Positions 9,042-45,926 of a stretch of DNA of 59,006 nucleotides are shown here, one piece after another. The stretch spans positions 1 through 59,006 of IMG/VR virus record IMGVR_UViG_3300032770_001058. The stretch is one strand, 5' to 3'. The notes under the pieces were generated by a model. The model searched no databases and was not told the DNA's origin. It worked only from the letters and a program-made list of their open reading frames with translations. The first letter of the stretch is position 1. Each line of letters opens with the position of its first letter. Source of the stretch: a virus. The position numbers were made by a program, and so were the translations under genes.

Positions 9042-11525
9042 ATGGAACCGAGAGCCATAGTTGAACAAATTCAGCGCGAGATTCTGAATTCGCGGCAAGC
9101 GGCGATATCAACAGACTTCGTCAATGCGTTGAACTTGATATCTGAAGTAGTTTTCTCCCGTAGCTCTGGATTCATTCTTGAGTTCCTGCAAAATGCCGAA
9201 GATTCCGGACTCGACCTCGCGAGCTCGGGGTGCTTCAACATTGCTATTAACAAGAAGAGAATCAAGCTAGTTCACAATGGGAGCCCGTTTATCGAAAAGG
9301 ACGTTCGGGCTGTCTGTGGTATTCGCTCTTCCAAAAAGCCGGAACGAGGAACTCTTGGGTACCTCGGAATTGGATTCAAGTCTGTATTCAAGGTGAGCGA
9401 TGCGCCTGAAATTCATTCGGGTGAATTTCATTTCAAATTCGACAAGGGCCATTGGTCCCCATCAGACAATGTGCCTTGGCAGGTAGTGCCCGTGTGGATC
9501 GAAGGCAGTCTGCCGCGTGTCCCGGACGATGCCACTAAATTCATTGTCCCTTTTAAGGATGCTGACTACTATCACACGCTTCGTTCTGAACTGGAACACC
9601 TAGGGACGGAACTCTACCTATTCTTGAAATGGCTTCGCAAAATTGAGATTACCGATGAAGTTACGAACGAGAAATGGACATTGCAGAACTTCGGAGAGAG
9701 GGACGACGTAACGACGCTGGGCCGAGACAGCACGCAGCAACGGTTTCGTTTTTTCCGCAAGGTCGTCACAGTGCCTGACGCGGTGAGGCGCGATCCGCTT
9801 ACACAACATTACCGCCGTAATGTCGTGGAGCGCGAGATTGCGATTGCGTTCGCCCTCGATGACAATAACAATCTGGCGCCTTCCGAAGCGGGTGCGATGT
9901 ACGGCGGGGTGTACTCATTTCTGCCGCTCGGCGAAGCACGCAGCGGAGCAAAATTCCCAATCCAGGCCGATTTTCTCGTTCAACCCGGACGTGACGCCAT
10001 CAATTACGAGGCGAAGTGGAATCACTGGCTTGTCGAGGAAGTCGCTGGCCTGTGCAAGACCGCAATTCACTATTTTAAGAAGCACCCAAGCTGGAAATAT
10101 CAGTTCTTGAGGGCATTTGACTTTACCAAATCGGCAGGTCTTGAATCTTACGACAAGTTGTTTGGTCCCAAGCTGATTGAGCCCATTACTAGGTTGCTGG
10201 AAGCGAGCTGCATTCCGACGAGCGACGACAAATGGGTTGCGGCGGCTGATGTGGTAAGGGTCAAGCCGGAGGAGCGCGATGCAATCGCGGCATTAGTCTC
10301 GTCAGGATTGCTGACCGACGAGAGCGAGATTGCCTCGGTGCTTGGCAACAGGAGCGGTCTCCATCTCGTACATCCGGATGCCGATGCTGGAGGCGTGCAC
10401 GTCAAGGATGTTGACCGATGGGACTTGCTGAAAAACGCCGACTACTTAAACAAACAAGCCAAGCGGGGCGATGCGGCGAAGTGGTTCCGTTCACTGTATC
10501 TCTGGCTCCGTGATTACCCCGCGCTGGAGAAGTACTTTTATCGCACCTGGCGCAGCAAGGCCAAAACATATCATCAATATGAGATAGTTCTGACGGGCGA
10601 TTCTGCTCTACTTAAAGGGGGCGCAGTGTCGTTCTTCGATGTTCCTGCTTCGGACGCGGTGAGCAAAGCGGTCGCGGTAGAGTTTGGGAAATCAAAAAAG
10701 CTCTTGCATCGTGACATCCTTGATGGCGCTCGTGATGACGTCCAGAGAGACGAGCTTCGAGCGTTTCTGACCGGCTACGCGGGCGTGCAGGTGCTTGACT
10801 CTGAAGTAGTATGTCGTGAAGCAATTCTTCCGAAGATTCTTGTCTCTGCAACGAAACCAAAGAGAGACGAGCTGTTGAGGCACACGCAGTATTGCTTTGA
10901 GAAGCTCGGAGCAGCTCTCCCCAGCGGAATCGAGTTCTGGGTTATCGGCAAACAAGGCGGCGTACGACCTGCGAAGGAGATGTTCTTCGCGACCGAGTTT
11001 AATCCGGAGCAAAACTGGGAGGCTAATAGCCAATTCGTTCCGGGGTTACACTTCCTCAGCCCCGACTATCTGCCAGCCCAAATCGACAGTGCTCAACAGA
11101 AGCTGTGGCGCGAGTTCTTCGTTCGCGGGGGAGTGCGGTCATCGGCCCCAGGTAGCATGGTTGAACAGTTTGCGATGAACTATGCTCAACAGGCATTGAC
11201 AATAAGGTGCAAGAAAATCACACCCGTAAACAAAGCGAATTACGGCTATGACTTGGAGGCCGTACTAACTACGACCGGAAAAACGCATCACGCAGGAATC
11301 CGAATCGAGGTGAAAGGTCAAACATCCGACAGTGATGTCGAATTGACTCCTGAGGAGACAATCGCTGCTGATAAACACAAAGGAAATTACTACGTGTCCG
11401 TCGTAAGCTCAATTCCCGAGAGCCCTGTTATGCATATGGTTCAGAATCCCGCTGCGCCGGGTGTCGGGAAGAAAGACAAGCTTACAATTCCTGTAAAGGT
11501 GTGGAAGCGTGCTCGGTGGCCATAA
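9042..11525 (+). CDS. NO VEIN/sacsin-like GHKL ATPase with DUF3883 domain
   Basis: 827 residues, opposite strand to the late operon. Residues about 25-125 are a sacsin/Hsp90-type (GHKL) ATP-binding domain: the N box EFLQNAEDSG (about 47-56), then IKLVHNGSPF and LGYLGIGFKSVFKVS (the Gly box and lid). The C terminus (about 725-800, NKANYGYDLEAVLT... AGIRIEVKGQTSD... LTPEETIAADKHKGNYYVSVV) is DUF3883, a PD-(D/E)xK-like fold with the E-V-K motif. The ATPase plus C-terminal DUF3883 layout is that of the plant NO VEIN protein and bacterial homologues that often lie in defence islands. AAAGGCTGAAAG stands 10-20 nt before the start. A single-gene anti-phage system is likely, but the mechanism is unknown. 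Confidence 0.85.
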   Translation: MEPRAIVEQIQREILNSRQAAISTDFVNALNLISEVVFSRSSGFILEFLQNAEDSGLDLASSGCFNIAINKKRIKLVHNGSPFIEKDVRAVCGIRSSKKPERGTLGYLGIGFKSVFKVSDAPEIHSGEFHFKFDKGHWSPSDNVPWQVVPVWIEGSLPRVPDDATKFIVPFKDADYYHTLRSELEHLGTELYLFLKWLRKIEITDEVTNEKWTLQNFGERDDVTTLGRDSTQQRFRFFRKVVTVPDAVRRDPLTQHYRRNVVEREIAIAFALDDNNNLAPSEAGAMYGGVYSFLPLGEARSGAKFPIQADFLVQPGRDAINYEAKWNHWLVEEVAGLCKTAIHYFKKHPSWKYQFLRAFDFTKSAGLESYDKLFGPKLIEPITRLLEASCIPTSDDKWVAAADVVRVKPEERDAIAALVSSGLLTDESEIASVLGNRSGLHLVHPDADAGGVHVKDVDRWDLLKNADYLNKQAKRGDAAKWFRSLYLWLRDYPALEKYFYRTWRSKAKTYHQYEIVLTGDSALLKGGAVSFFDVPASDAVSKAVAVEFGKSKKLLHRDILDGARDDVQRDELRAFLTGYAGVQVLDSEVVCREAILPKILVSATKPKRDELLRHTQYCFEKLGAALPSGIEFWVIGKQGGVRPAKEMFFATEFNPEQNWEANSQFVPGLHFLSPDYLPAQIDSAQQKLWREFFVRGGVRSSAPGSMVEQFAMNYAQQALTIRCKKITPVNKANYGYDLEAVLTTTGKTHHAGIRIEVKGQTSDSDVELTPEETIAADKHKGNYYVSVVSSIPESPVMHMVQNPAAPGVGKKDKLTIPVKVWKRARWP

Positions 11526-25562: not shown

Positions 25563-25701
25563 CGGATCGTGACTCGATTCTGAATTGGGACTAGGATGAC
25601 AGCTGGATGTCTGCGCGATGTGAATGCCGGGCGCTTCGATGGCTTCATTGGTAGATTGCAGCGAGCGCGACCCTCAGTGGCCGCGCGGGAACGTGCATAC
25701 T

Positions 25702-26049
25702 CTAAACTCCGGTCGGGGCGCCTTCGGCCAGTTCCAGGCACAGCAGGTCGATCTCGACGTTGCGTTCGTCCTGGTTGACCACGGCTTTAATGTCGAAGGT
25801 GCGCGCGCCAAAGAGGACGCGGTGGTTTGCCTTGATGGTCACGCCCGGCAGGTAGCGGATATTCACGCGGTGCGTGGCCTCGGCCAGGAATTGATTGTCG
25901 GCGTAGGTTTCATCCGCCCGCAGCGTCTCGATCTTCGCGTACACGGTCTGGTAGGTCGTGTACGTGATCTCGCCGCCGAGCGGCTGCGGGTCGGGGCTTT
26001 GGAGCTGTATCTGGCGGCGGCGATCGCCAGCAGGAGTCGGTTTGAACAT
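25702..26049 (-). CDS. Head closure protein (phage head-tail joining, SPP1 gp16-like)
   Basis: 115 residues. GDRRRQIQLQSPDPQPLGGEITYTTYQTVYAKIETLRADETYADNQFLAEATHRVNIRYLPGVTIKANHRVLFGARTFDIKAVVNQDERNVEIDLLCLE is a textbook Phage_H_T_join sequence: R-x-Q at the N terminus, W/Y-A-x-I/V, H-x-V-x-I-R-Y, and F-x-I-x-x-V. It closes the packaged head. The next expected genes (tail terminator onwards) are displaced 4.5 kb away by the Hachiman cassette. Confidence 0.9.
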   Translation of the reverse strand: MFKPTPAGDRRRQIQLQSPDPQPLGGEITYTTYQTVYAKIETLRADETYADNQFLAEATHRVNIRYLPGVTIKANHRVLFGARTFDIKAVVNQDERNVEIDLLCLELAEGAPTGV

Positions 26050-26127
26050 AATCGGAAGTGCTGCGGGCGCGGAGTCGCAACGCCCGCAGCCAGCCGCACC
26101 TTTAAGGACGCGAACAGGTGCGGGGGT

Positions 26128-26982
26128 TTAGACGATGTGGCAGACCAGCGGCGACAGCAGGGCCTCGAAAGCCGGAGGATATTCGCTGCTGTTGGGCAGC
26201 ACGGCATCATCGCCGCGCCGCGCGTACAGGAAGCCGACGTATTGCTTCATCGCCTGGATGATCTCGGCCGGCACTTCGCCGCCCACGAAGGCGAGAGCAT
26301 TGTTCACGCCGGAGGACGCCGCCGGCGTGATCGTGCCGCTCCCGTTCCCATCGACGGCAAGCTTTGCGACCAGACGCGTGCCCGCTGGGCCCGCGCCCGG
26401 AATGTAGATCATTTTGCCGCTGGCCGACTGCGGGAATACGAAGCCCACGATCACACCGAGCGAGCCGTTCGCGATCGACACGTAATCGGCATCGCAGTAC
26501 CCGGCTATGAAGTCGAGCTGCACGCAGCCCGCGGCCAGGCGGCACGGAGGCCAGGGACGCGCCCACGGCGGCAGCAGCCGCGCGGGCTGGGTCTCGCTCC
26601 CCGGCATGAGCTGATAGCCATACATTGCCAGCCAGTCGCGGCCGTAATCGGTCTGCTGCGGCAAATCTTGCAGGTCGCCCGCCGTGTCGACGTACTGGAA
26701 CGAGACGATGGATTGCAGCGGCGGCTTGGGCACGAGGATCTGCGGAAAGCCGCGCCGCATATAGAGCGGATGAAGCGGCGGAAACGAGTCCATCTCGTAC
26801 ATCCATTCCTGGGTGACGAGCGCGCGGTGTGTGTAACTCTCGACTGCCTGGCGCGCGACAACGATCAGAGACGTAATCAGGTCGTCGTCGTAGCTGTAAT
26901 CGACGCGCAGCGATTTCTTGGCATCGACGAGCGCCAGCGGCTCCGCCGCAGGCGGCGTGATCAGGCTAAGTTGCGCTTTCAT
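26128..26982 (-). CDS. Head-tail connector (gp6-like adaptor)
   Basis: 284 residues. LITPPAAEPLALVDAKKSLRVDYSYDDDLITSLIVVARQAVESYTHRALVTQEWMYEMDSFP is the gp6-like connector motif (P-x-s-L-x-x-A-K-x-x-L-R-x-D). The C-terminal AEIIQAMKQYVGFLYARRGDDAVLPNSSEYPPAFEALLSPLV is the other family hallmark. A Gly/Pro-rich segment (about 190-235) enlarges the central part relative to the ~100-residue minimal family, as in many long versions. It follows the small 66-residue gene by 5 nt. Confidence 0.88.
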   Translation of the reverse strand: MKAQLSLITPPAAEPLALVDAKKSLRVDYSYDDDLITSLIVVARQAVESYTHRALVTQEWMYEMDSFPPLHPLYMRRGFPQILVPKPPLQSIVSFQYVDTAGDLQDLPQQTDYGRDWLAMYGYQLMPGSETQPARLLPPWARPWPPCRLAAGCVQLDFIAGYCDADYVSIANGSLGVIVGFVFPQSASGKMIYIPGAGPAGTRLVAKLAVDGNGSGTITPAASSGVNNALAFVGGEVPAEIIQAMKQYVGFLYARRGDDAVLPNSSEYPPAFEALLSPLVCHIV

Positions 26983-26987
26983 GACTT

Positions 26988-27188
26988 CTAGTTCGAGCGG
27001 AACAGGCGGCGCTTACGGCTGGAACTCGCACTCGGATTGGCGGGAACCGGAGCTTCGGCCGCGATAGGCCGCTCCTTTTCAAGTCGCGGATCGACCGCGC
27101 GTCCTGCTTTCAGCAGCTCGCGGGCCTCTTCCGGGCGCATGTCGATGATCTTGCCGGCGTTGATGCCGAACTTCACACGTACGAACAT
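26988..27188 (-). CDS. Small head-module protein
   Basis: 66 residues from MFVRVKFGINAGKIIDMRPEEARELLKAGRAVDPR, ending in a basic Ser/Arg tail. AAAGGAACAACC precedes ATG 27188. Short proteins with this G-x-x-x-D-x-x-P-x-x-A-x-x-L-L-x-x-G-x-A pattern are common between capsid and connector genes of siphophages; the function is unknown. A longer in-frame extension to 27305 is a coding shadow of the upstream intergenic sequence. Confidence 0.7.
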   Translation of the reverse strand: MFVRVKFGINAGKIIDMRPEEARELLKAGRAVDPRLEKERPIAAEAPVPANPSASSSRKRRLFRSN

Positions 27189-36690: not shown

Positions 36691-36710
36691 GCGGCAACCA
36701 ACCGCAGGAG
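36691..36710 (+). repeat. Shine-Dalgarno hairpin, copy 1 (no gene after it)
   Basis: GCGG-CAACCAA-CCGC followed by AGGAG. The same fold precedes most early genes, but here no start codon with a real gene follows, so it may be a relic. Confidence 0.6.
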
Positions 36711-36743
36711 AACGGGAAGTGCGGCAGACGCGACGAAACCGAA

Positions 36744-36763
36744 GCGGCAACCAACCGCAGGAG
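36744..36763 (+). repeat. Shine-Dalgarno hairpin, copy 2 (sequestered)
   Basis: Identical to copy 1 (GCGG-CAACCAA-CCGC-AGGAG) but lies inside the 12-bp inverted repeat 36714-36725/36765-36776, which would place the AGGAG in a larger loop. No gene follows. Confidence 0.55.
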
Positions 36764-37236
36764 AGCCGCACTTCCCACCTACCTTGTGCCGCTGGCCACG
36801 GCGACCGTTCGAATCCCACAAACGGCGAAAGCACAGTTGCAACGCGCATCCTGTTCCGCTGGCCTTCGGGCCGGAACGGTAGCGATGCCTGCGCTGCGCC
36901 CTCGCCGCGCGTGTTCTGGCGAACGGTCGGGCTAAGGCTTTCACCAGTCGCTCTCGTCGCGGCGAATGCGGGCTGCGGCCATATCCGGCAGGCTGTACCT
37001 TCCCAAATCGCGTAGCAGGTGCCGATAACCCTGCGAACCCTAGCCTGAGGAACGGCTAGTCGGGACAACTCGAATCCCGGAAATCTCGGAGCGCGGCAAT
37101 CGCCACGATACGGCGCAGTTCAAGAGTTCCGCCCATGGCGGAATCGCCTACAAGGTCGCGGCGCAGTCAAAGAAGCGGCGCGCTAACGGTCATACCGACG
37201 AGACTAAGTGAGAAGAGCGCAAGCGACAAAAAACCT

Positions 37237-37302
37237 TCCCGATACTGCCTGATGAGAACGGGACGAAACCGGCCCACATGACAGTGTGGGCACGGTCGCA
37301 GT
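37237..37302 (+). ncRNA. Hammerhead ribozyme-like element A
   Basis: In order: TCCCG (37237-37241), stem I 5' ACTGC (37244-37248), core CTGATGA (37249-37255), G, AA, CGGGA (37259-37263), C, GAAA (37265-37268). Stem III pairs ACCG with CGGT, then GCCCACA with TGTGGGC, with one bulged A and a TGACAG loop. Then C17 (37297) and stem I 3' GCAGT (37298-37302). Every invariant hammerhead core base is present. CGGGA cannot form a local helix II but pairs with the upstream TCCCG. Predicted cut between 37297 and 37298, leaving a short 5'-OH leader for the first early gene. Needs an in vitro test. Confidence 0.8.
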
Positions 37303-37305
37303 TAA

Positions 37306-37325
37306 GCCGCAACCAGCGGCAGGAG
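37306..37325 (+). repeat. Shine-Dalgarno hairpin, copy 3
   Basis: GCCGC-AACCA-GCGGC directly joined to AGGAG, 9 nt before ATG 37335. After cutting by element A the mRNA would begin eight bases before this hairpin. Confidence 0.75.
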
Positions 37326-37334
37326 AATTCCGCG

Positions 37335-37856
37335 ATGACAAATAGTAGAGGTTCGCTCCGCTCGGTTTACACGGTGAAGCCGAAGTCGAATTCGAAGAAA
37401 TCCGCTTTCCGTCGCCAGATGGCCGCGCGGCACAGGGCACAGGATGCCGTGCCGACCAGCAAACCCGCAACCAGCCTGAAGCCGAAGAGCGCCGCGAATG
37501 GCTGGGATGACCCTGAAATCCGCGCAAAGCGGATTGCGGCCATTCGCGCCGCGCGCGCTGGTGTCACCGGCCAGCAGCCGACCGAAGAAAAGAAGATGCC
37601 GACTCCTCCGCCGCGTGACCCTGAGCTAGCTGCTGCTCAGGACGCGATCGCCAAGCATCAGTTCGCGATTCTGTCGAAGCTGCCTGCTGAAAGCGTGGTC
37701 AGGTATTACGACCTGGGCTGGCGTCATGCCCACCTGATGGAAGCGAAACCCGACCGCTGCCGACTCCGCTCGATTCCTGCCTACAGCCGCAAACCCGTCA
37801 CCTTCACTGTGCCGACTTCCGAAGTCGAGGCCTACAGCGCTCCCGCGACTGCCTGA
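37335..37856 (+). CDS. First early protein, WDDPEIR motif, function unknown
   Basis: 173 residues. The basic N-terminal third (VYTVKPKSNSKKSAFRRQMAARHRAQ) is followed by NGWDDPEIRAKRIAAIRAARAG (about 55-76), a motif shared with two other proteins in this operon. A C-terminal part (AAQDAIAKHQFAILSKLPAESVVRYYDLGWRHAHLMEA) is helical. The motif resembles short DNA-binding repeats (NUMOD3-like) in charge pattern, so nucleic-acid binding is a guess. ATG 37335 is fixed by AGGAG of the leader hairpin. Its stop TGA is part of the core of hammerhead element B, and the last residues PATA are encoded by the ribozyme's upstream strands. Confidence 0.8.
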   Translation: MTNSRGSLRSVYTVKPKSNSKKSAFRRQMAARHRAQDAVPTSKPATSLKPKSAANGWDDPEIRAKRIAAIRAARAGVTGQQPTEEKKMPTPPPRDPELAAAQDAIAKHQFAILSKLPAESVVRYYDLGWRHAHLMEAKPDRCRLRSIPAYSRKPVTFTVPTSEVEAYSAPATA

Positions 37857-37895
37857 TGAGATCGGGACGAAACCGGCAACTCGCCGGTCGCAGTC
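37841..37895 (+). ncRNA. Hammerhead ribozyme-like element B
   Basis: TCCCG (37841-37845), stem I GACTGC (37847-37852), CTGATGA (37853-37859), G, AT, CGGGA (37863-37867), C, GAAA (37869-37872), stem III ACCGGC/GCCGGT with an AACTC loop, C17 at 37889, stem I 3' GCAGTC (37890-37895). The GACTGC/GCAGTC pair differs from the AACTGC/GCAGTT of element D at the last pair on both sides. Predicted cut 37889/37890. It overlaps the end of the upstream gene. Confidence 0.83.
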
Positions 37896-37902
37896 ATTTC
37901 AA

Positions 37903-37922
37903 GCCGCAACCAGCGGCAGGAG
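37903..37922 (+). repeat. Shine-Dalgarno hairpin, copy 4
   Basis: GCCGC-AACCA-GCGGC-AGGAG, 7 nt before GTG 37930. Confidence 0.75.
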
Positions 37923-37929
37923 AACGATC

Positions 37930-38520
37930 GTGATTAAGAGGAACAAACCCGAAGAGCAGTTAATCCCCGCTGATCTGGACGCCATCGCGAAGAACGCCAT
38001 GTACTGGCAGATTGCCTCGCAGCATGCCGAGGAAATCTACAAAGAAGTGAAGGCTGACTTCTTCCAGCGCGTCGAGACTCACCCGCAAATTGAGATGGTC
38101 GTGGGCAAGAGCCTGAAAGTCTCCACCGGCAAGGTGCGCTGGCAGTCGCGCGAAAACTTCGACGTGCTCCAGGATGAGATCGAGAAGGCGCTGGAGTCGG
38201 GCCGCATCACCGTGCCTGTGCTGTTAGGAATGGTGAAGTCGTACGACACCGACGCGGTGCGCCAGTTCGTACCCGCTGCGGTCGTACCGAACGCGGAGAA
38301 GCCGGTCACCGAGTATGGCGTGATGGTCGCTTCGGCGGACTATAAGGCCGAAGTTCATGCCCAGGTCGATGAGCTGCTGAATCAGTCGCCCGCGCCTGCT
38401 GTGCTCCCGCCCAATGTCGCCGTGATGAAGCCTGCGGCCAGTGTGCCACTCACCGAGCAACTGGAAGCCTCGCTCGCCGATGCGAAGAAGAAACGCTCCC
38501 GCAAGCCCGCGACTGCCTGA
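37930..38520 (+). CDS. Early phage protein of unknown function
   Basis: 196 residues starting at GTG 37930, fixed by the leader AGGAG. LIPADLDAIAKNAMYWQIASQHAEEIYKEVKADFFQRVETHPQIEMVVGKSLKVSTGKVRWQSRENFDVLQDEIEKALESG is mixed helical and strand, then a flexible Pro/Ala-rich linker and a basic tail KKKRSRKPATA. The early-gene place and basic tail would suit a DNA-linked role, but no family is recognised. The stop codon lies inside hammerhead element C. Confidence 0.78.
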   Translation: MIKRNKPEEQLIPADLDAIAKNAMYWQIASQHAEEIYKEVKADFFQRVETHPQIEMVVGKSLKVSTGKVRWQSRENFDVLQDEIEKALESGRITVPVLLGMVKSYDTDAVRQFVPAAVVPNAEKPVTEYGVMVASADYKAEVHAQVDELLNQSPAPAVLPPNVAVMKPAASVPLTEQLEASLADAKKKRSRKPATA

Positions 38521-38563
38521 TGAGAACGGACCGAAACCGGCGACCCACTCGCCGGTCGCAGTC
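38505..38563 (+). ncRNA. Hammerhead ribozyme-like element C
   Basis: GCCCG (38505-38509), stem I GACTGC (38511-38516), CTGATGA (38517-38523), G, AA, CGGAC (38527-38531), C, GAAA (38533-38536), stem III ACCGGCGA/TCGCCGGT (8 bp, CCCAC loop), C17 at 38557, stem I 3' GCAGTC (38558-38563). In the proposed distal helix II, the U-A pair of A, B and D becomes G-C here (TCCCG/CGGGA versus GCCCG/CGGAC), with one C-A mismatch. Predicted cut 38557/38558. Confidence 0.82.
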
Positions 38564-38570
38564 AATTCAA

Positions 38571-38590
38571 GCCGCAACCAGCGGCAGGAG
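38571..38590 (+). repeat. Shine-Dalgarno hairpin, copy 5
   Basis: GCCGC-AACCA-GCGGC-AGGAG, 7 nt before GTG 38598. Confidence 0.75.
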
Positions 38591-38597
38591 AACGCAA

Positions 38598-39464
38598 GTG
38601 CAAGACACAAGCACCAATTACCGCTACTACACCGCCGAACCGCTCACCAATGACCAGCTTCGCCGCGTCGCGCCGTCCATCTTCGCCGAGCGGCCATGGG
38701 CGGAAATGTCTGACCGCTACACCTTCATTCCCACCATCCGCATTGTCGAGGAGATGCGTAAGGAAGGGCTGGTGCCCTATTTCGCCAAGCAGACGATCTC
38801 GCCTGTCGAAGGGCGGACCCCCTTTGCCATGCACATGATTCGCTTCCGCGATACGTCGCAACGCGGCCAGAAGCTGGTCGTCGGCGACTTGTATCCGGAA
38901 GTGACTCTCATCAACTCACACGATGGCGGCGCCAGCTACCGGCTGATGGCTGCTCTGCTGCGCGCGGCTTGCATGAACGGCCTGATGGTCAGCGATTCCG
39001 AGTTCGCGGCCATTCACGTCATGCATCGCGGCAACGTCACTCCCGTGCTTGAGGCCAGCTTCCAGGTCATCGAGCAGTTCCCGAAGATCATGGGCGAAGT
39101 GGGCGAGTTCCAGCGCATCGAGCTCAAGCGCGACCAACAACTGGCGCTGGCCGAATCGGCGCTGGAATTGAAGTACGACGAGCGGGACGATGGTTCGCTC
39201 GCCTGCCCGATCACCGCCGACGCCGTACTGATGCCGCGCCGCTCCGACGACTCGAAGCCCACGCTATGGAACACATACAACGTGGTACAGGAAAACCTGA
39301 TGAAGGGCGGCCAGCGCGGCGTCATCATCGGCGCGAATCACCGCACTCGCCGCGTCAAGACGCGTCCGGTGAAGGCGATTGCCACGGATGTCAAGTTAAA
39401 CAAGGCGCTGTGGACATTGACGGCGAGGATGGCCGAGTTGGTCGGCGCTCCCGCAGCCGCGTAA
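38598..39464 (+). CDS. DUF932 phage/plasmid-like protein
   Basis: 288 residues. LTNDQLRRVAPSIFAERPWAEMSDRYTFIPTIRIVEEMRKEGLVPYFAKQT... GRTPFAMHMIRFRD... LVVGDLYPEVTLINSHDGGASYRLMAALLRAACMNGLMVSD is the DUF932 (TIGR03299-like) pattern. These proteins are common in phage and plasmid early regions and are thought to be linked to DNA replication or recombination; the biochemistry is not known to me. GTG 38598 is chosen from the AGGAG; an in-frame ATG at 38520 would lie inside the ribozyme. It is followed by a plain hairpin rather than a ribozyme. Confidence 0.9.
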   Translation: MQDTSTNYRYYTAEPLTNDQLRRVAPSIFAERPWAEMSDRYTFIPTIRIVEEMRKEGLVPYFAKQTISPVEGRTPFAMHMIRFRDTSQRGQKLVVGDLYPEVTLINSHDGGASYRLMAALLRAACMNGLMVSDSEFAAIHVMHRGNVTPVLEASFQVIEQFPKIMGEVGEFQRIELKRDQQLALAESALELKYDERDDGSLACPITADAVLMPRRSDDSKPTLWNTYNVVQENLMKGGQRGVIIGANHRTRRVKTRPVKAIATDVKLNKALWTLTARMAELVGAPAAA

Positions 39465-39477
39465 TCATTTCGTCATG

Positions 39478-39503
39478 GCTGGCCCGCTCGCTCGCGGGCC
39501 AGC
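39478..39503 (+). repeat. 10-bp intergenic hairpin
   Basis: GCTGGCCCGC-TCGCTC-GCGGGCCAGC, perfect 10-bp stem with a 6-nt loop, between DUF932 and the next gene. No T run follows, so it is probably an mRNA stabiliser or processing site rather than a terminator. It occupies the place a ribozyme has at other junctions. Confidence 0.7.
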
Positions 39504-39542
39504 GCGACTCAAACCGCTGTACTACCGAATAGGAGAACGGTC

Positions 39543-39836
39543 ATGGCAAAGAAAAACGCAAACGGCTGGGACGACCCTGAAATCCGGCAGCGCCGCATCG
39601 ACGCAATCCGCGCGGCGCTGGCGAAGAAACCCGCAACGAAGAAGGCGAAGAAGGCCAGCAAGAGCAGCCCGAAGGCGAAGGCCAGCAAACCCGCGAAGAA
39701 GGCGAAGAAAGCCAGCCCGAAGCCTGCGGCGACTCAGGCGAAGCAGCAGCCCGACACCAAACTGGCGAAAGCGCTGCACACGCTCGAATCGCGCGTGAAG
39801 GTCACGCCCATCAACTCACTTCCCGCAACTGCCTGA
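39543..39836 (+). CDS. Lys/Ala-rich histone-like protein with WDDPEIR motif
   Basis: 97 residues. Residues 6-26 (NGWDDPEIRQRRIDAIRAALA) carry the motif shared by three early proteins. Residues 27-80 are a Lys/Ala/Pro-rich tail (KKPATKKAKKASKSS...) like histone H1 or bacterial nucleoid proteins, so it probably binds DNA or RNA. AGGAG lies 8 nt before ATG 39543, here without the usual hairpin. The end LPATA-stop is encoded within hammerhead element D. Confidence 0.8.
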   Translation: MAKKNANGWDDPEIRQRRIDAIRAALAKKPATKKAKKASKSSPKAKASKPAKKAKKASPKPAATQAKQQPDTKLAKALHTLESRVKVTPINSLPATA

Positions 39837-39876
39837 TGAGAGCGGGACGAAACCGGCCATCCGGCCGGTCGCAGTT
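39821..39876 (+). ncRNA. Hammerhead ribozyme-like element D
   Basis: TCCCG (39821-39825), stem I AACTGC (39827-39832), CTGATGA (39833-39839), G, AG, CGGGA (39843-39847), C, GAAA (39849-39852), stem III ACCGGCC/GGCCGGT (7 bp, ATCC loop), C17 at 39870, stem I 3' GCAGTT (39871-39876). Predicted cut 39870/39871. Confidence 0.84.
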
Positions 39877-39878
39877 AA

Positions 39879-39898
39879 GCCGCAACCAGCGGCAGGAG
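39879..39898 (+). repeat. Shine-Dalgarno hairpin, copy 6
   Basis: GCCGC-AACCA-GCGGC-AGGAG, 7 nt before ATG 39906. Confidence 0.75.
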
Positions 39899-39905
39899 AA
39901 CACCG

Positions 39906-41078
39906 ATGTTGGAACAACCGCTATCAGCCAGTCTCATCCTCACCAACGCCAAACACGATAAGGTCTTTCGCGCCTGGCTCATGCCGCAAGGCACGGGATG
40001 GGTGGTCAGAACCGAATGGGGCGCGCGCTCTGCCGGTAAACTCAGCTCGCAGGTGAAGCCCGACTCTCCGACGACCTATGAGGCCGCGAAGAAGATCTAC
40101 GACAAGAAAATCCGCGAGAAAACCGAGTTGCCGTGCTCCTGCGGCTGCGGCGACCGCTACCTGCAAACCCGCGTCGAAGCGGGCGAGCCGAAGCTGCAGC
40201 CGATCGATTGCACGGCGGCGCAGGCGGAGCAGGAACAGAAAGCCGAAGCTGTCGCTGGTCCGACAAGCTGGGCACCGCAACTGCTCGAACCCATCGAAGG
40301 AGAGCGCGGCAAGCTGCTGCTGGTCGGTGATGACCGCTACGGCGCGCAGGAGAAGTACGACGGTGTCTGTATTTCCCTATGGTGGGCGGAAGAGCAGCGC
40401 GCGCGCTGCTTCAACAAACTCGGCCAACTCCGCGACGTGCCCACCTACGTTGCCGACTCGCTGATCGCGCGCGCTCGTGAAGCCGAAGCGAAGTCATTTT
40501 GGGTTCACGGCGAGCTGCTTCCGAACGGCGGGCCGCTGGTCGTGCACGACCTGATGGAATGGAACGGCGACGATCAGCGCGGCGAAACCTATCGCGCACG
40601 CTTTGGGCTGGTCGCGACGTTCCTCGGCAACTGCCTGCATATCGCGATTCCGGAATTGATCACCGGAACGCATGCGAAGAGCGCGTTCGTCGCCGCACTC
40701 GCCGCGAAGCGGGCCGAAGGTGTCGTATTCAAGCGGCTCAATGCGCCGTACCTGCCCGGTCGTACGCAGCACTTCAAATTCAAATTCTGGCAGTCGGCCA
40801 CTTGCAAGGTCACTCCGAAGCGGAAGATCGACGGCAAGAATTCCCACGCCATCTCGGTGTTGCGCAAGGGGAAGCTGGTCGAAGTCGGCACCGTCACCGG
40901 CAAGAGCAGCGTACCGGCCCAGGTCGGCTCGCTGGTCGAAGTGAAATACCTTTATGTGGGTCATGGCGATCGCTTCGTGCAGCCCGAATTGCTGGGCCTG
41001 CGCGACGATCAGGCCCGGCCCGACGATTGGTCCACCCTCAAGCTGAAAGACACTCACCGGGAGGCGCGGTCATGCTAG
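39906..41078 (+). CDS. WGR domain - ATP-dependent DNA ligase fusion
   Basis: 390 residues. The first ~75 residues (ASLILTNAKHDKVFRAWLMPQGTGWVVRTEWGARSAGKLSSQ... TYEAAKKIYDKKIREKTELP) form a WGR domain, known to bind nucleic acid ends in PARPs and some ligases. A Cys-rich linker (CSCGCGDRY, about 77-84) follows. The ligase part has motif I QEKYDG (nucleophile Lys about 150), VHGELL (motif III region), EGVVFKRLNAPYLPGR (motif IV), and HFKFKFW (motif V). An OB-like C terminus follows (VGTVTGKSSVPAQVGSLVEVKYLYVG). It should seal nicks during phage DNA replication or repair. It overlaps the next small gene by 7 nt. Confidence 0.88.
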   Translation: MLEQPLSASLILTNAKHDKVFRAWLMPQGTGWVVRTEWGARSAGKLSSQVKPDSPTTYEAAKKIYDKKIREKTELPCSCGCGDRYLQTRVEAGEPKLQPIDCTAAQAEQEQKAEAVAGPTSWAPQLLEPIEGERGKLLLVGDDRYGAQEKYDGVCISLWWAEEQRARCFNKLGQLRDVPTYVADSLIARAREAEAKSFWVHGELLPNGGPLVVHDLMEWNGDDQRGETYRARFGLVATFLGNCLHIAIPELITGTHAKSAFVAALAAKRAEGVVFKRLNAPYLPGRTQHFKFKFWQSATCKVTPKRKIDGKNSHAISVLRKGKLVEVGTVTGKSSVPAQVGSLVEVKYLYVGHGDRFVQPELLGLRDDQARPDDWSTLKLKDTHREARSC

Positions 41079-41296
41079 TCCACGTCTTCCGCTTCCCCTC
41101 ACCCGAGCTTGACGAATGCGCGACGACCATAAGAGCAGCTATCCGCGCTCACTGGCGCCGGGAGATCACCTTCGCCGAATACCTGGCGGTGAGAGATGCT
41201 GCACATGCGAAGTGCGAGCATGTATTGCTCCGCATCTTTGCCGCCCTGGACCGCTCGGACGACCGGCCCGAGGTCTCCGAACGGCTGGCGGCATGA
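41072..41296 (+). CDS. Small early protein, unknown
   Basis: 74 residues (MLVHVFRFPSPELDECATTIRAAIRAHWRREITFAEYLAVRDAAHAKCEHVLLRIFAALDRSDDRPEVSERLAA), mostly helical. GGGAGG lies 7 nt before ATG 41072, and the gene overlaps the end of the ligase gene, implying coupling. Family not recognised. Confidence 0.65.
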   Translation: MLVHVFRFPSPELDECATTIRAAIRAHWRREITFAEYLAVRDAAHAKCEHVLLRIFAALDRSDDRPEVSERLAA

Positions 41297-41299
41297 CCT

Positions 41300-41357
41300 T
41301 CCCGCAACTGCCTGAGAGAACGGGACGAAACCGGCGACTCGTTCGCCGGTCGCAGTT
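41300..41357 (+). ncRNA. Hammerhead ribozyme-like element E, one core base missing
   Basis: TCCCG (41300-41304), stem I AACTGC (41306-41311), then CTGAGA (41312-41317) instead of CTGATGA, G, AA, CGGGA (41321-41325), C, GAAA (41327-41330), stem III ACCGGCGA/TCGCCGGT with a CTCGT loop, C17 at 41351, stem I 3' GCAGTT (41352-41357). Everything is kept except core position 7, which is deleted. It does not overlap a coding end. It is likely slow or dead and is a natural control for A-D. Predicted cut, if active, 41351/41352. Confidence 0.72.
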
Positions 41358-41359
41358 AA

Positions 41360-41379
41360 GCCGCAACCAGCGGCAGGAG
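41360..41379 (+). repeat. Shine-Dalgarno hairpin, copy 7
   Basis: GCCGC-AACCA-GCGGC-AGGAG, 6 nt before ATG 41386. Confidence 0.75.
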
Positions 41380-41385
41380 AACGCT

Positions 41386-41547
41386 ATGAGATGCCCGTTT
41401 TGCCACGGTGAGATCGACGAGCAATACAGCCTGCTCGATCAATGCCAGCGGTTAGAGCAGGAACGCTGGCAGCGCGAATTCGACGCCGGACTCCGGCGAT
41501 TGGTCGAAACCGTCGATAAAGTCATGGCCAAAGTCGGCCACGCATAG
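41386..41547 (+). CDS. Small protein with CPFCH zinc-finger-like start
   Basis: 53 residues: MRCPFCHGEIDEQYSLLDQCQRLEQERWQREFDAGLRRLVETVDKVMAKVGHA. One C-x-x-C pair and nearby H could bind zinc, perhaps as a dimer; the rest is one helix. Start fixed by the leader hairpin. Unknown function. Confidence 0.65.
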   Translation: MRCPFCHGEIDEQYSLLDQCQRLEQERWQREFDAGLRRLVETVDKVMAKVGHA

Positions 41548-41593
41548 GCGCTGTGCTGTATCTCGGCCAGCAATAACTTCCACCTTCAACAAA

Positions 41594-41614
41594 GCTGCTT
41601 ACTCGCAGCAGGAG
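41594..41614 (+). repeat. Shine-Dalgarno hairpin, copy 8 (stem changed)
   Basis: GCTGC-TTACTC-GCAGC-AGGAG, 7 nt before ATG 41622. The C-G pair of other copies is T-A here, so pairing is kept while sequence changes. No ribozyme precedes it. Confidence 0.7.
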
Positions 41615-41621
41615 AATTCAT

Positions 41622-43349
41622 ATGTCTACGACAACAGTTGCAGTCCTGCCTGTAAACCGAAAGAAAGCCGACGCGCTGGACGTTCAGATGCTGCCGATCG
41701 GCGTCCTCACCCTCTCCGAAACCAATCCGCGCTCCGGGATGGACGCAACCGAGCTCGACGAGCTGGCCAAATCTATTCTCGACCACGGAATCCTGCAGCC
41801 GCTGGTCGTGCGGCCACATCCAGGCGTCGTCGTGGTGGAGTCCAGCGTCCCGGGCCGCTGGTATGCCGCTTATGAGAACGGCACCGACCATCCCAATCTG
41901 ATCGGCACCGGCCACGAAAAGAAGGCAGAGGCTGAGGCCGAAGCGGCTGGCATTCGCCGCTGGGAGATCATCGCCGGCGCGCGGCGCTATAAGGCCGCGA
42001 AGCTGGCGAAGCTGCGCGAGGTTCCATGCCGCATCGTGCGCGTTAGCAATCAGGAAGCGCGCGACATTCAGATCATCGAAAACCTGCAGCGCACCGACAT
42101 TCACCCGCTGGATGAAGCCGAAGCTTTCGTGCAACTGCTCGGCTCAAGCGGCGACATCAAGGCTCTGGCGAAGCGCGTTGCCAAGCCTGAACTCTATGTG
42201 CGGCGCCGTCTCTCCCTGCACGAGTTGATCGAGCCTGCGAAGAAGGCGTTCCGGGAGCATCGCATCTTCCCGGGCCACGCCTATCAACTCAGCCGATTCC
42301 CGACGAACGCGCAGAAGGCAGTCTGGAAGCAGTTAGAGGGCAAAGACGTCACCCCCAATCAACTGCGCAAGGCCATCGCCGACAATTTCACCCTGAAACT
42401 GTCGGGCGCGCCATTCGATACCGGCGATGCGAAGCTGCTCGAAGCGGCGGGAAGCTGCACCGACTGCCCGAAGCGCACCGGCAACAATCCGCTGCTGTTC
42501 TCCGACATCAAGGCGGCCGACACCTGCACCGACCGCGACTGCTACAGCCGTAAGGTGGAAGCCCATCTCGTGCAGATCGCAACGAAGCTGGAAAAGGCCA
42601 GCGGGAAGCCGGTCCTGCGTCTGTCGGAGAAGTTCCAACCAACCATCAAGGGCGCGCTCTCCAGCGGCCAGTGGCATCGCTGCGACCGCGCGTCAGAATG
42701 TGCTCATGCGCAGCAAGGCATCATCGTGGAGACCGATTATTACGGCTCCGGCCCGAAGAAGCTGGGCCAGACGATCACCGTCTGTGCGACGAAGGAGTGC
42801 AAGTTTCACTTCGGCTCGCACACTGGGGAGTCGGCTGAGTCGATGCAGGAGCGGGAGCGCACGAAGCGCCGCGTGGTGAAGCAGAAGGTCGGGGTCAATA
42901 AGGCCGTCTTTACCGCCGTGCAGGAGAAGATGCCCGGAGTCCTGGGCGCCGAAGAGCTGCGCCTGATCGGGCGCGAACTGTTCCAGCGCGTTTACGGGCC
43001 TTATCGCAATCGCATCGCCCGCGACGTGTACCAGCTCGAACCCAAGATCGTGAAGAGCCACTACGTCACGACCGGCGGCACGACGAAGGATTACGCCGCT
43101 GCGCTGCTGGCGAAGCTGCCGGAGATGAACGCGAAGGAACTGACCCGCTTCTGCCTGATCTCGCTTACCGCGGGTAACGCCTACACTCCGCCGCTGTACA
43201 CCAATTCCAGCGCCGAGCCGGAGAATCCGCTCTACACCCTCGCCAAACTCTACAAGGTGGACGCTCGTTCCATCCGCGAGAAGATCGTCACCACTGATCG
43301 CGAGAAGGCGAAAGCAAAGAAGGCGACGAGAGCCGCGAAAGCCGCTTAA
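41622..43349 (+). CDS. ParB/RepB/Spo0J-like protein, long phage form
   Basis: 575 residues. The ParB N-terminal domain is clear: LPIGVLTLSETNPRSGMDATELDELAKSILDHGILQPLVVRPHPG, WEIIAGARRYKAAKLAKLREVPCRIVRVSNQEARDIQIIENLQRTDIHPLDEAEAF, then an HTH-like AKRVAKPELYVRRRLSLHELIEPAKKAF. The C-terminal 350 residues contain a Cys cluster (CTDCPKR... CTDRDCYSRK, about 283-308; more Cys near 349 and 389) that may bind metal, and a helical end. Such long ParB-like proteins are common in phage early regions and may act in DNA replication or as nucleases rather than in partition. Confidence 0.88.
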   Translation: MSTTTVAVLPVNRKKADALDVQMLPIGVLTLSETNPRSGMDATELDELAKSILDHGILQPLVVRPHPGVVVVESSVPGRWYAAYENGTDHPNLIGTGHEKKAEAEAEAAGIRRWEIIAGARRYKAAKLAKLREVPCRIVRVSNQEARDIQIIENLQRTDIHPLDEAEAFVQLLGSSGDIKALAKRVAKPELYVRRRLSLHELIEPAKKAFREHRIFPGHAYQLSRFPTNAQKAVWKQLEGKDVTPNQLRKAIADNFTLKLSGAPFDTGDAKLLEAAGSCTDCPKRTGNNPLLFSDIKAADTCTDRDCYSRKVEAHLVQIATKLEKASGKPVLRLSEKFQPTIKGALSSGQWHRCDRASECAHAQQGIIVETDYYGSGPKKLGQTITVCATKECKFHFGSHTGESAESMQERERTKRRVVKQKVGVNKAVFTAVQEKMPGVLGAEELRLIGRELFQRVYGPYRNRIARDVYQLEPKIVKSHYVTTGGTTKDYAAALLAKLPEMNAKELTRFCLISLTAGNAYTPPLYTNSSAEPENPLYTLAKLYKVDARSIREKIVTTDREKAKAKKATRAAKAA

Positions 43350-43477
43350 TCGCCGCGCGGGCCTGCCCCGCGCGCTCTGCTTCTCCTCTTCGAGCCCGAT
43401 GCCTCCGCAGTAGCGAGAGCCAGTGCCGCAATGAGAAGCAGGGCGCGGACGGCAGGACCGCCGTACGCAACTAACGG

Positions 43478-44032
43478 TTATTCGTTCGGGAACCTGAAAC
43501 GTCCCAATTGTTCAGACACAGAACTGAATGACTTTCCGCCACTGACTGTTTCCCGCGCTAACAACGCGGTCTTTTCACCGCAGTCAATCCAGACCCTCTG
43601 CCAAACCACATCAACGTCGGTGTTAGTGTGGGTGTCAGTCCGTACAGTACATTTCGCAAACCCCTCGTCGTTCAAGTGGGTGATTAGGCCGTAAAGAGCT
43701 TCAGCCGTGTCATCATTAGGGGTGGTCCATCGACGCTCCGCAAAGGTAAGCAATCCGCGCGTAAATTGCATGGTGGGCAAGTCTCGTCCTGCCTTAATAT
43801 CGTCCACGGTTCCCAACCACAACTCGTCATCATCCGGTTTCATTAGCTGCTGTCCGGCCAACTTCTCCGCGACCTGGGCCTTTGTCATTCCTAAACGTAA
43901 CTTCACTCCGCCTATTTCGATCGCGGTTCTGCTTAACTGCTGGGAGGGCTGCTTTTGTGCGTGTAGAAGCGGCGGACATATACAGCAGAGCACGATTGCG
44001 GTCGTCGAAATTGCGCGTTTCATGTTGTTCAC
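43478..44032 (-). CDS. Exported protein of unknown function (cargo)
   Basis: 184 residues. MNNMKRAISTTAIVLCCICPPLLHAQ is a signal peptide, likely cut after HA. The mature part (SRTAIEIGGVKLRLGMTKAQVAEKLAGQQLMKPDDDELWLGTV) resembles small envelope proteins with an SmpA/BamE-like start (G-M-T-x-x-Q-V), then LTFAERRW and two Cys. Opposite strand within the early region and lower GC, so acquired. Confidence 0.65.
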   Translation of the reverse strand: MNNMKRAISTTAIVLCCICPPLLHAQKQPSQQLSRTAIEIGGVKLRLGMTKAQVAEKLAGQQLMKPDDDELWLGTVDDIKAGRDLPTMQFTRGLLTFAERRWTTPNDDTAEALYGLITHLNDEGFAKCTVRTDTHTNTDVDVVWQRVWIDCGEKTALLARETVSGGKSFSSVSEQLGRFRFPNE

Positions 44033-44087
44033 CTTATTTTGACGGAAGCGGACACATGCTACACCTCGCTTTCGGCAATGAGAACAC

Positions 44088-44735
44088 CTATGTCTGCGGC
44101 TGGAGATCGTCTACCTGCCGCTCATAAACCGTGTCTAATCTCAAGGTGAGGGCGAAGATATGCACTGCGATGCTTAGCGCGTCGTTGGGCGCAAGCGGCT
44201 GGTGAAGCAACGGCACGACGAAGTTGATGTTTTGTCCCGCTGCTTGGAGCCGACCTAAGGCGGATTCGATCTGGTTAGCCAGTTCCACTTGAAAGGCCGC
44301 AGTAAAACGGCGTTTCCAGTCGGCCTCGTTCTTGTCCATCTCGATTTTCTTGGTCGGATTGGCTGTTCGCCCCGAAATTGGAATCGGCCCGTTCTTAGCT
44401 ACGAAATCAACGGTACACTCGCGTATCGTTGCGCACATCATTACTGCTTCCCGCTTTACCGTTCCATCCCGCCCAATCAACCGTTCTGCGTTCTGAAAGC
44501 GCCGATAAATAACGTCTGCCATTCGCCACCCCAAAAAGCCAACGAAAAGCGCAGTTCCCCACCACGGCGACAGAAGGTGCAAGTGGCTCATGAGCACCCT
44601 CTGTGCGCCGCTGACTAGCCCCAATACAGCCCAGGCTGCTCCGCTGAGGATGCCAACCAAGAAAATTGTGTCTCGGTAATCTTGGCGAGAATGTCTAAAT
44701 GCTTCGGTGAATACCGACCAGTAGAATCGCAGCAT
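44088..44735 (-). CDS. Two-helix membrane protein (cargo)
   Basis: 215 residues from MLRFYWSVFTEAFRHSRQDYRDTIFLVGILSGAAWAVLGLVSG. Two membrane helices (about 22-40 and 55-72), then a cytoplasmic part with CATIRECTVDFVAKNGPIP and a long C-terminal helix. ATG 44735 is chosen over 44864 because the extra part would overlap a phage leader hairpin on the other strand. Family not recognised; lies back to back with the exported protein and may be a pair with it. Confidence 0.6.
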   Translation of the reverse strand: MLRFYWSVFTEAFRHSRQDYRDTIFLVGILSGAAWAVLGLVSGAQRVLMSHLHLLSPWWGTALFVGFLGWRMADVIYRRFQNAERLIGRDGTVKREAVMMCATIRECTVDFVAKNGPIPISGRTANPTKKIEMDKNEADWKRRFTAAFQVELANQIESALGRLQAAGQNINFVVPLLHQPLAPNDALSIAVHIFALTLRLDTVYERQVDDLQPQT

Positions 44736-44840
44736 ATCTGGCGATTGTAATGCGCCAGTGGAAAACGAGAATGGCCCACACCCAGTAAGCCTCTTCAGTT
44801 TCTCGACTGAGGCGGCGGCACTATAATCGAGATTCCACAA

Positions 44841-44861
44841 AGCGGCAACCAGCCGCTGGAG
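44841..44861 (+). repeat. Shine-Dalgarno hairpin, copy 9, with a six-codon ORF
   Basis: AGCGGC-AACCA-GCCGCT followed by GGAG and, 10 nt later, ATG CCA GCC GCT AAA GCT TGA (44871-44891), a six-residue ORF (MPAAKA). It is either the leader of a deleted gene or a leader peptide. Stem bases differ from other copies but pairing is kept. Confidence 0.55.
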
Positions 44862-44889
44862 CATCCCTAATGCCAGCCGCTAAAGCTTG

Positions 44890-45000
44890 ATCTCCGTCCG
44901 TGCGACTCCGCGCGTGCGGAGCGTGAACGGGGGTGGTACCCTGCCAAGCCCGCTACGTCAAGGCGGGAAGCCGTAGGCCGCGTTCGCGCGGCCTGCGCAC
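44890..45000 (+). ncRNA. Structured RNA candidate upstream of the AAA ATPase
   Basis: Hairpins in sequence: CTCCGC-GCGT-GCGGAG (about 44909-44924), GGGT-GGT-ACCC (about 44932-44942), CCCGC...GCGGG (about 44949-44968), whose loop base run CTACG can pair with CGTAG about 25 nt on (a pseudoknot), and AGGCCGCG-TTCG-CGCGGCCT (about 44977-44996). The run GGGAAGCC followed by a strong UUCG hairpin recalls the 3' end of TnpB/OrfB-linked RNAs, but no tnpB is present. It could also be another processing element, as it takes the ribozyme's place. Class unknown. Confidence 0.4.
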
Positions 45001-45006
45001 TTTTAA

Positions 45007-45026
45007 GCGGTCACCAACCGCAGGAG
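45007..45026 (+). repeat. Shine-Dalgarno hairpin, copy 10 (stem changed)
   Basis: GCGGT-CACCA-ACCGC-AGGAG, 6 nt before ATG 45033. Stem differs from GCCGC/GCGGC but stays fully paired. Confidence 0.72.
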
Positions 45027-45032
45027 AACGAG

Positions 45033-45926
45033 ATGCGTCATCAGGAGATATTTGACTCCGACCCTCAGTCCGAGATGGACCTGGGCCAACCCAAACAGAA
45101 TGCCATCCAGTTTCCCGTCACTCTTGCCGAACGCTACCAGCCGCGCCACATCGCCGAATTCATCGGCTTAGAACATCCCAAGCGGCTGCTCACCAACCTG
45201 ATCGCCAAGCCTCGACCATGCCCTCTGCTCTTCATCGGCCCGCCTGGAGCTGGGAAGACCGCGATGGGCGTGACCTTCGCGGTCGAACTACCCGGCGCGC
45301 TGCACCATGTCAGCGCGCAAAAGTGCGATGTCGCGGCACTGGACGCGCTGGGCGAGAAATTCTCCTACATCCCGCCCAGGGGCCGATTCTGGATTTCGCT
45401 GATTGACGAAGCCGACCAAATGACCGAGAAGGCGCAACTGCAACTGCTATCCCGCTTGGATGGGACAGCCGCACTGCGGCCGGTATTCGGTGGCGGATTT
45501 GAACGCGGCGAGCCGTTGCCGATCATCTGGATTTTCACGGCTAACGGTCGAGGGTCAAAGCAGATAGAGCCGCCATACAGTTTCGCGTCCCGCTTCCTCT
45601 CGCGCTGTATGATCGTGCCCTTCGAACTCCCGACTCAGGCTGAACTCGCCGCGTATCTGCGCAAACTGTGGGAATTGGAAGGCGGTGGGCCGACGCCCGC
45701 CGACTATTTCGACTACATCGCCGACGACTGCGCTGTCCGCGATGCCCTGATGAAACTCGAAGTCGATCTGCTGGCCGGCCCGCGCGCGCGACCTGTGCCG
45801 GAGATCACCGACCAGCCTCAACCGAAACCGGTAACTTGTGACCGAGGAGCAAACCAATGGGACGACCCGGAAATTCGCAAACGCCGAATCGAAGGAATCC
45901 GCGCGGCTATGGCGAAAAGAAAGTAA
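45033..45926 (+). CDS. AAA+ ATPase (clamp-loader/RuvB-like) with WDDPEIR tail
   Basis: 297 residues. AERYQPRHIAEFIGLEHPKRLLTNLIAKPRPCPLLFIGPPGAGKTAMGVTFA: N-linker, then Walker A GPPGAGKT (about 69-76). LIDEADQM (Walker B, about 124-131), IFTANGRG (sensor 1), SRFLSRCMIVPFELP (arginine finger region). It resembles RFC/RuvB-type motors that load or remodel proteins on DNA. The last 25 residues (NQWDDPEIRKRRIEGIRAAMAKRK) repeat the motif of two upstream proteins, which suggests a shared partner. It overlaps the DUF523 gene by 70 nt. Confidence 0.88.
   Translation: MRHQEIFDSDPQSEMDLGQPKQNAIQFPVTLAERYQPRHIAEFIGLEHPKRLLTNLIAKPRPCPLLFIGPPGAGKTAMGVTFAVELPGALHHVSAQKCDVAALDALGEKFSYIPPRGRFWISLIDEADQMTEKAQLQLLSRLDGTAALRPVFGGGFERGEPLPIIWIFTANGRGSKQIEPPYSFASRFLSRCMIVPFELPTQAELAAYLRKLWELEGGGPTPADYFDYIADDCAVRDALMKLEVDLLAGPRARPVPEITDQPQPKPVTCDRGANQWDDPEIRKRRIEGIRAAMAKRK

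Follow-up and report, generated by a model that had tools for sequence, protein, structure and literature searches.

Complementary, covarying loops point to a probable two-part kissing-loop riboregulator in phages of Acidobacteriota

Introduction

Riboregulators that act by kissing loops close to a ribosome-binding site are known from OxyS-fhlA, from RNAIII and its targets, and from FinP-traJ. In the icaR messenger RNA (mRNA) of Staphylococcus aureus, the 5′ untranslated region (5′-UTR) pairs with the 3′-UTR, which blocks the initiation complex (PMC3868564). In prophage operons, several hammerhead ribozymes of types I and II, with a very short, pseudoknotted stem II, cut polycistronic phage transcripts (PMC3088659). 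Here we report on a hairpin, termed A, which runs directly into the Shine-Dalgarno (SD) sequence, and on a second candidate RNA structure, termed element B, in a stretch of viral DNA (the entire IMG/VR record IMGVR_UViG_3300032770_001058, 59,006 bases, called the window in the following) and in related phages and prophages.

Comparison across phages shows A and B as folds under selection, which lie on one strand, usually in the order A then B, and carry complementary, covarying loops. We consider A to be the target half and B the other half of a two-part kissing-loop riboregulator with a probability of about 0.7; that a kissing complex forms in the RNA and controls translation of every A-led gene of an operon is what we infer from these patterns. 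With OxyS-fhlA, RNAIII and FinP-traJ the arrangement would share a loop-loop contact at or near the ribosome-binding site. Those regulators are small RNAs of hosts or plasmids and use longer complementarity, whereas B stands behind the stop codon of a phage gene and would use four bases. The likeness to icaR consists in an element that lies behind the stop codon and has its pairing partner around the SD of its own mRNA (PMC3868564), a pairing known here from covariation; in most cassettes, the open reading frame (ORF) started behind A ends with a stop codon that marks the beginning of B. In icaR a linear UCCCC stretch pairs with the SD itself, with RNase III in addition (PMC3868564), whereas A and B are two hairpin loops with an exchangeable four-nucleotide (nt) code, a conserved B fold and many targets per B, and occur in phages. 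Pairing that covers the SD was not found for A and B, as the A loop lies upstream of the SD and the letters of the latter stay outside the pairing.

Results and Discussion

Hairpin A

Ten A hairpins were found on the plus strand of the window between 36691 and 45021, each running into AGGAG or, once, GGAG; positions and arm sequences are those given by an earlier note on this DNA (Table 1). As that note had also stated, the loop is mostly AACCA or CACCA, namely in 9 of 10 copies (in A1 and A2 after a C·A mismatch), the exception being A8 with TTACTC. The distance from SD to start codon is 6–9 nt for A3–A10; behind A2 there is no evident gene. Hairpins with an ACCA loop that abut (A/T)GGAG occur nine times on the plus strand and not at all on the minus strand of the window, compared to a mean of 0.61 (maximum 4) on both strands of 100 Markov sequences. 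A covariance model of hairpin A (R1), built from copies of several phages with A8 left out, ranked the ten copies first in the window with 22–43 bits, A8 being the weakest, and the next match reached 15 bits. E-values of our covariance models are rough owing to short calibration; across approximately 700 genomes those of R1 are too optimistic and most matches are due to chance.

The stems had been proposed to covary, so that the fold would matter. Within the window this support is thin since five copies are identical, but copies from other phages make the covariation solid. Further carriers are L086/G001 (six copies), L089/G002, L090/G003 (three copies) and the Acidobacteriaceae prophage L244/G006 (two copies), and the stems across carriers include GCCGC/GCGGC, GCGGC/GCCGC, GCCGA/TCGGC, CTCGC/GCGAG, GCCGT/ACGGC, GAGGC/GCCTC and GTCGT/ACGAC, with a loop of NACCA throughout. 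Among 11 distinct sequences, 4 of 5 pairs were altered on both sides while all positions remained paired (100%), a level reached in 0 of 500 shuffles. Within one genome the ACCA hairpins agree, and the free first base of the loop varies (A, C and T in G001). The G001 ortholog of the AAA gene behind A10 (47% identical) is also preceded by A, with a different stem. Searching relatives, as the earlier note had suggested, thus yielded a hairpin kept with different stems and a constant loop. About 25 records of DUF932 gene relatives gave no clear A family, and a generic scan of viral contigs for AACCA-N5-AGGAGAA returned 80 loci, none of which has the full stem. Hairpin A is therefore not a general feature of phages.

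Three further observations concern A. In the window (36711–36774), a perfect inverted repeat of 12 bp (GGGAAGTGCGGC/GCCGCACTTCCC) encloses A2 together with its SD, and a CGACGAAACC stretch in this region resembles a hammerhead remnant; as no gene follows, a decoy or regulatory RNA is possible. In L351, L367 and L437, A is closely preceded by one more small hairpin, GGGTGGTGACCC (or GGGTGGCGACCG), behind which comes ACACCAGA or ACGCCAGA. The module is not limited to large phages, as A hairpins together with B also occur in L332 (G599:C2), a small element that encodes a serine recombinase of the resolvase type and in which an end sequence resembling TCTGGCCATTCAACG is repeated.

Element B

B was recognised by reading the flanks of A-led genes. 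It is roughly 77 nt long and has four predicted stems: P1 enclosing P2, then CGUC, P3 with the hexaloop GUGGUA, and P4 with the loop UA(C/G)GUAA. In 35 aligned copies, 90% of cells are paired and both-side changes occur at 17 of 20 pairs; none of 500 shuffles scored as high. A covariance model of the P3–P4 core (R2) matched B in all six A carriers known at that point and gave no convincing score among unrelated control loci. In Acidobacteriota genomes it matched G006, G428, G599, G769 and G776, all five of which also carry an ACCA hairpin; in G428, G769 and G776 this A lies 0.3–1.4 kb upstream of B, behind a promoter. These five genome matches point to Acidobacteriota as hosts. Pattern scans of viral contigs, of which the final three set no constraint on the P3 loop, added more than 40 loci, and B was collected in 44 non-identical copies in total. 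A BLAST search of GenBank phages with B gave short chance matches only, and neither A nor B had an Rfam 15 match (E ≤ 1) in the window, in L086, L089 and L090, or in 16 further loci. Among relatives of the AAA gene, L235 and L237 have neither A nor B, and L236 has B alone.

Genes directly behind B in L347, L351, L356, L367 and L383 are transposase genes of the insertion sequence type IS1595 (ISXO2), named from sequence alone, mostly full length and starting 11–17 nt behind B in several phages. In other phages this place is occupied by small genes of a zinc-finger-like type (GGRP...CxxC). L338 (G428, Acidobacteriota) contains at approx. 9555–9645, on the minus strand, two type I-E-like repeats (CGTTCCCCGC..GCGGGGATG) of the CRISPR (clustered regularly interspaced short palindromic repeats) kind with one 32-nt spacer, a solitary mini-array between prophage genes. 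In the window itself, a 14-bp hairpin with the loop TGGTA (approx. 25935–25967, within the ORF 25624–26991) is a possible second UGGU loop.

Covariation between the loops of A and B

The P3 loop of B has UGGU at hexaloop positions 2–5 (N-UGGU-A), which is complementary to the ACCA that ends the A loop. For shorter P3 loops there are two readings, a 5-nt loop or an N-core-A hexaloop, and the core letters are the same in either. Where one loop departs from this code, the other usually departs with it: AGCCA in A is matched by UGGC in B (L374, L385), AACAA by UUGU (first module of L376) and AUCA by UGAU (second module of G1086). For G791, the B loop CUGGAA led to a prediction before the A sequence had been fetched, and A indeed has AUCCA (UCCA/UGGA). 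GCCA/UGGU in L361 and ACCG/UGGU in L355 are compatible through wobble pairs. G1086 has two modules, each self-consistent, with different loop codes; in L376, which also has two, the first is self-consistent. When B loops were permuted over 32 cassettes, the observed 119 of 128 Watson-Crick pairs compared with a shuffled mean of 107.8 and a maximum of 117, so that 200,000 shuffles never reached the observed pairing (p < 1e-5). Sliding the register by one lowered pairing from 145/160 to about 50/160. The loops are thus complementary and change together with their partners, as kissing loops should. Because the A loop covaries with the B loop, an invariant third partner such as a transfer RNA (tRNA), a ribosomal RNA (rRNA) or one protein is excluded as the reason for the loop letters.

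Two such partners had been considered. A T-box-like contact of UGGU with the ACCA end of a tRNA was dropped as the pairs UUGU/ACAA, UGGA/UCCA and UGAU/AUCA would not bind tRNA. Complementarity of CCAGCCGCAGG to the 3′ end of 16S rRNA was dropped because it is lost in other stems despite an unchanged loop.

Several points weigh against a kissing-loop regulator. Only three of four pairs form in L383, L387 and L388 (UCCA with GGGA), in L371 (UCCA/UGGU), L352 (ACCC/UGGU) and L391 (ACCA/CGGU), and in the second module of L376 (ACCA/UCGU, one mismatch), and four base pairs make a short kiss. Most cassettes share ACCA/UGGU by descent, which leaves about a dozen variant cassettes to carry the test. 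In G008, B is present with no visible A; in G973 (L441) the stretch before B is transposase-like sequence in which no A was seen. Further, hammerheads ahead of A were seen solely in the window and L090.

Arrangement of A and B

Every relative that bears A also carries B. A is located upstream of B on the same strand for 28 of 34 testable B copies (downstream for 6, on the other strand for 1–4). B starts at the stop codon of the upstream ORF in 34 of the 44 non-identical copies, usually with this codon 38 nt ahead of P3; for the majority of these copies, that ORF starts at the codon behind A. The cassette hence reads promoter, A, SD, small variable ORF, stop, B and next gene. At least two A-led genes per single B are present in L244, L090, L373, G001 and the window. 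In the window, A9 lies 13 nt 3′ of a TATAAT box (44822–44827) and is followed by the six-codon ORF MPAAKA (44870–44890) with B directly after, which looks like a dedicated short RNA. The B loop of G973, UUGGCC, would call for GCCA.

This geometry would also suit a different purpose of a genuine A–B pairing, namely bridging of the 5′ and 3′ parts of an mRNA (5′ protection, an RNase III site or processing) rather than ribosome loading: B follows immediately on the stop codon of the A-led gene with constant spacing, A is at the transcript start in many phages, and the predicted ribozyme cuts in the window give the same kind of 5′ end. Yet A abuts the SD in every copy, even inside an operon far from 5′ ends (G001, six copies), and a single B for many A hairpins is ill-suited to simple bridging of one gene. 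We therefore regard bridging as unlikely, although it survives best among the alternatives.

Ribozymes and promoters ahead of A

Five A copies of the window (A3–A7) lie 8 or 13 nt behind the predicted cut of a type I hammerhead-like element, identified by the core CUGAUGA...CGAAA...GUC, which was read in the sequence and aligned. Elements 1–4 have this core and stems I and III; ribozyme activity of element 5 is doubtful given its broken core. Stem II is minimal, approximately one base pair, and an upstream CCCG can pair with CGGG of the stem II loop. No Rfam match was obtained for the window elements, whereas two A copies of L090 lie behind type II hammerheads that Rfam recognises. Several hammerheads per polycistron, of types I and II and with a very short, pseudoknotted stem II, would be shared with the prophage ribozymes described earlier, for which no SD hairpin behind the cut is described (the word "Shine" is absent from the text; PMC3088659). 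By motif, A would be the first structure of the mRNA after cutting, as the earlier note had it. In many other phages, A is found within approx. 15 nt of a TTGACA/TATAAT-like (sigma70-like) promoter. Judged from these motifs, the ribozyme is one of two ways, together with promoters, to place A near a 5′ end. In G001, A copies stand between genes with neither a ribozyme nor a promoter ahead, so A is more than a 5′ cap; the feature that accompanies it throughout is the SD, in line with the earlier proposal that the hairpin is tied to translation starts.

Mere 5′ protection or a ribosome standby site had been offered as the role of A. Hairpins in mRNA leaders, as in ompA, are known to protect the transcript, and the position of A at transcript starts and behind ribozyme cuts would suit such a passive element with an incidentally conserved loop. 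It does not account for loop letters that are kept while stems vary and whose changes are matched in the distant B loop, and we consider it highly improbable as the explanation; where a ribozyme or promoter sets the 5′ end, protection of that end may come as an extra advantage. Hairpins beside the SD are also classical protein operators (MS2 coat, T4 gp43), and A could be bound by a phage or host RNA-binding protein; a phage protein with the motif WDDPEIR had been suggested as an example, and tails with this motif resemble basic helices. An operator seems scarcely probable: the motif is confined to the window, being absent from nine other A carriers and from all of 445 loci apart from window-derived ones, and compensated changes in A and B loops are unexpected for a protein site. 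Least probable of all are single-strand DNA sites of a gene-cassette system resembling integron attC, since the small ORF between A and B that differs in nearly every phage, the position of B after a stop codon as in attC and the full-length IS1595-type genes behind B in several phages are outweighed by an A placed without exception next to SD and start codon downstream of a promoter, by several A hairpins per operon, by the absence of an IS1595-like gene from most copies and by ribozymes ahead of A in two phages.

Possible mode of action

The best-supported partner of A, from the loop comparison, is thus an RNA, the P3 loop of B. In the kissing-loop regulator favoured here, the UGGU core would pair with the four 3′-most bases of the A loop in a 4-bp complex beside the SD, and this kiss would control translation of all A-led genes in the operon. 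Repression by blocked loading of the 30S subunit would be the likeliest sign, because the 30S can reach the A loop, located approx. 20 nt upstream of the start codon, and because an element behind a stop codon can block initiation in icaR (PMC3868564). The operon has to be transcribed before B can appear, so that B would work as a delayed brake. The single B of the window would serve nine ACCA hairpins, acting in trans on the five A copies before which ribozymes are predicted to cut; the ParB-like gene would escape B since the A8 loop lacks ACCA. The mode of B, cis or trans, probably depends on the phage, with cis being simplest for one A per B and trans expected for most copies of the window. 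An exchangeable loop code would keep two modules of the same phage apart.

It is an evenly balanced question whether this constitutes an undescribed class of riboregulators in phages of Acidobacteriota, in which a B at the end of an early gene array would read, in cis or in trans, an identical four-nucleotide loop beside the SD of every array gene, with an exchangeable code and, in some phages, hammerheads that would divide the array into separate mRNAs, each governed by the same RNA switch. The data suggest RNA-only control of a whole phage gene array by a four-base code that has already been swapped several times in nature. B adds a structured RNA that has no Rfam entry and is present in dozens of soil phage contigs and in acidobacterial prophages; the loop code may be reusable for orthogonal translational switches, and phage hammerheads would gain a concrete context, mRNAs starting with a regulatory hairpin.

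Table 1. Positions of hairpins A, element B and predicted hammerhead-like elements in the window.
Feature	Position	Strand	Sequence or structure	Remarks	Model score
A1	36691..36710	+	GCGG-CAACCAA-CCGC + AGGAG		R1 35 bits
A2	36744..36763	+	identical to A1, + AGGAG	no evident gene behind	R1 32 bits
A3	37306..37325	+	GCCGC-AACCA-GCGGC + AGGAG		R1 43 bits
A4	37903..37922	+	as A3, + AGGAG
A5	38571..38590	+	as A3, + AGGAG	precedes DUF932 gene
A6	39879..39898	+	as A3, + AGGAG
A7	41360..41379	+	as A3, + AGGAG
A8	41594..41614	+	GCTGC-TTACTC-GCAGC + AGGAG	precedes ParB-like gene; loop without ACCA	R1 22 bits
A9	44841..44861	+	AGCGGC-AACCA-GCCGCT + GGAG
A10	45007..45026	+	GCGGT-CACCA-ACCGC + AGGAG	precedes AAA (clamp-loader-like) gene 45033–45926
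Element B	44890..44967	+		between A9 and A10	R2 39 bits
B P1	44892–44897/44916–44921	+
B P3	44928–44932/44939–44943	+	loop GUGGUA	loop at 44933–44938
B P4	44949–44953/44963–44967	+
Hammerhead-like ribozyme 1	37237..37303	+	type I	predicted cut 37297/37298, 8 nt before A3
Hammerhead-like ribozyme 2	37842..37895	+		predicted cut 37889/37890, before A4
Hammerhead-like ribozyme 3	38506..38563	+		predicted cut 38557/38558, before A5
Hammerhead-like ribozyme 4	39821..39876	+		predicted cut 39870/39871, before A6
Hammerhead-like element 5	41300..41357	+	core CUGAGAG, one U missing	before A7

Gene context of the window

The window belongs to a tailed phage, with TerL, portal, HK97-type capsid and tape measure genes on the minus strand, and an integrase is also encoded. 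The array of A hairpins on the plus strand spans small genes, the DUF932 gene, the ParB-like gene and the AAA clamp-loader-like gene; from this gene content, the A-led genes are presumably early. Three otherwise different proteins of the window (37497, 39561 and 45852) share the motif W-D-D-P-E-I-R-x-x-R-I-x-x-I-R-A-A, which in one of them forms the C-terminal tail of the AAA protein.

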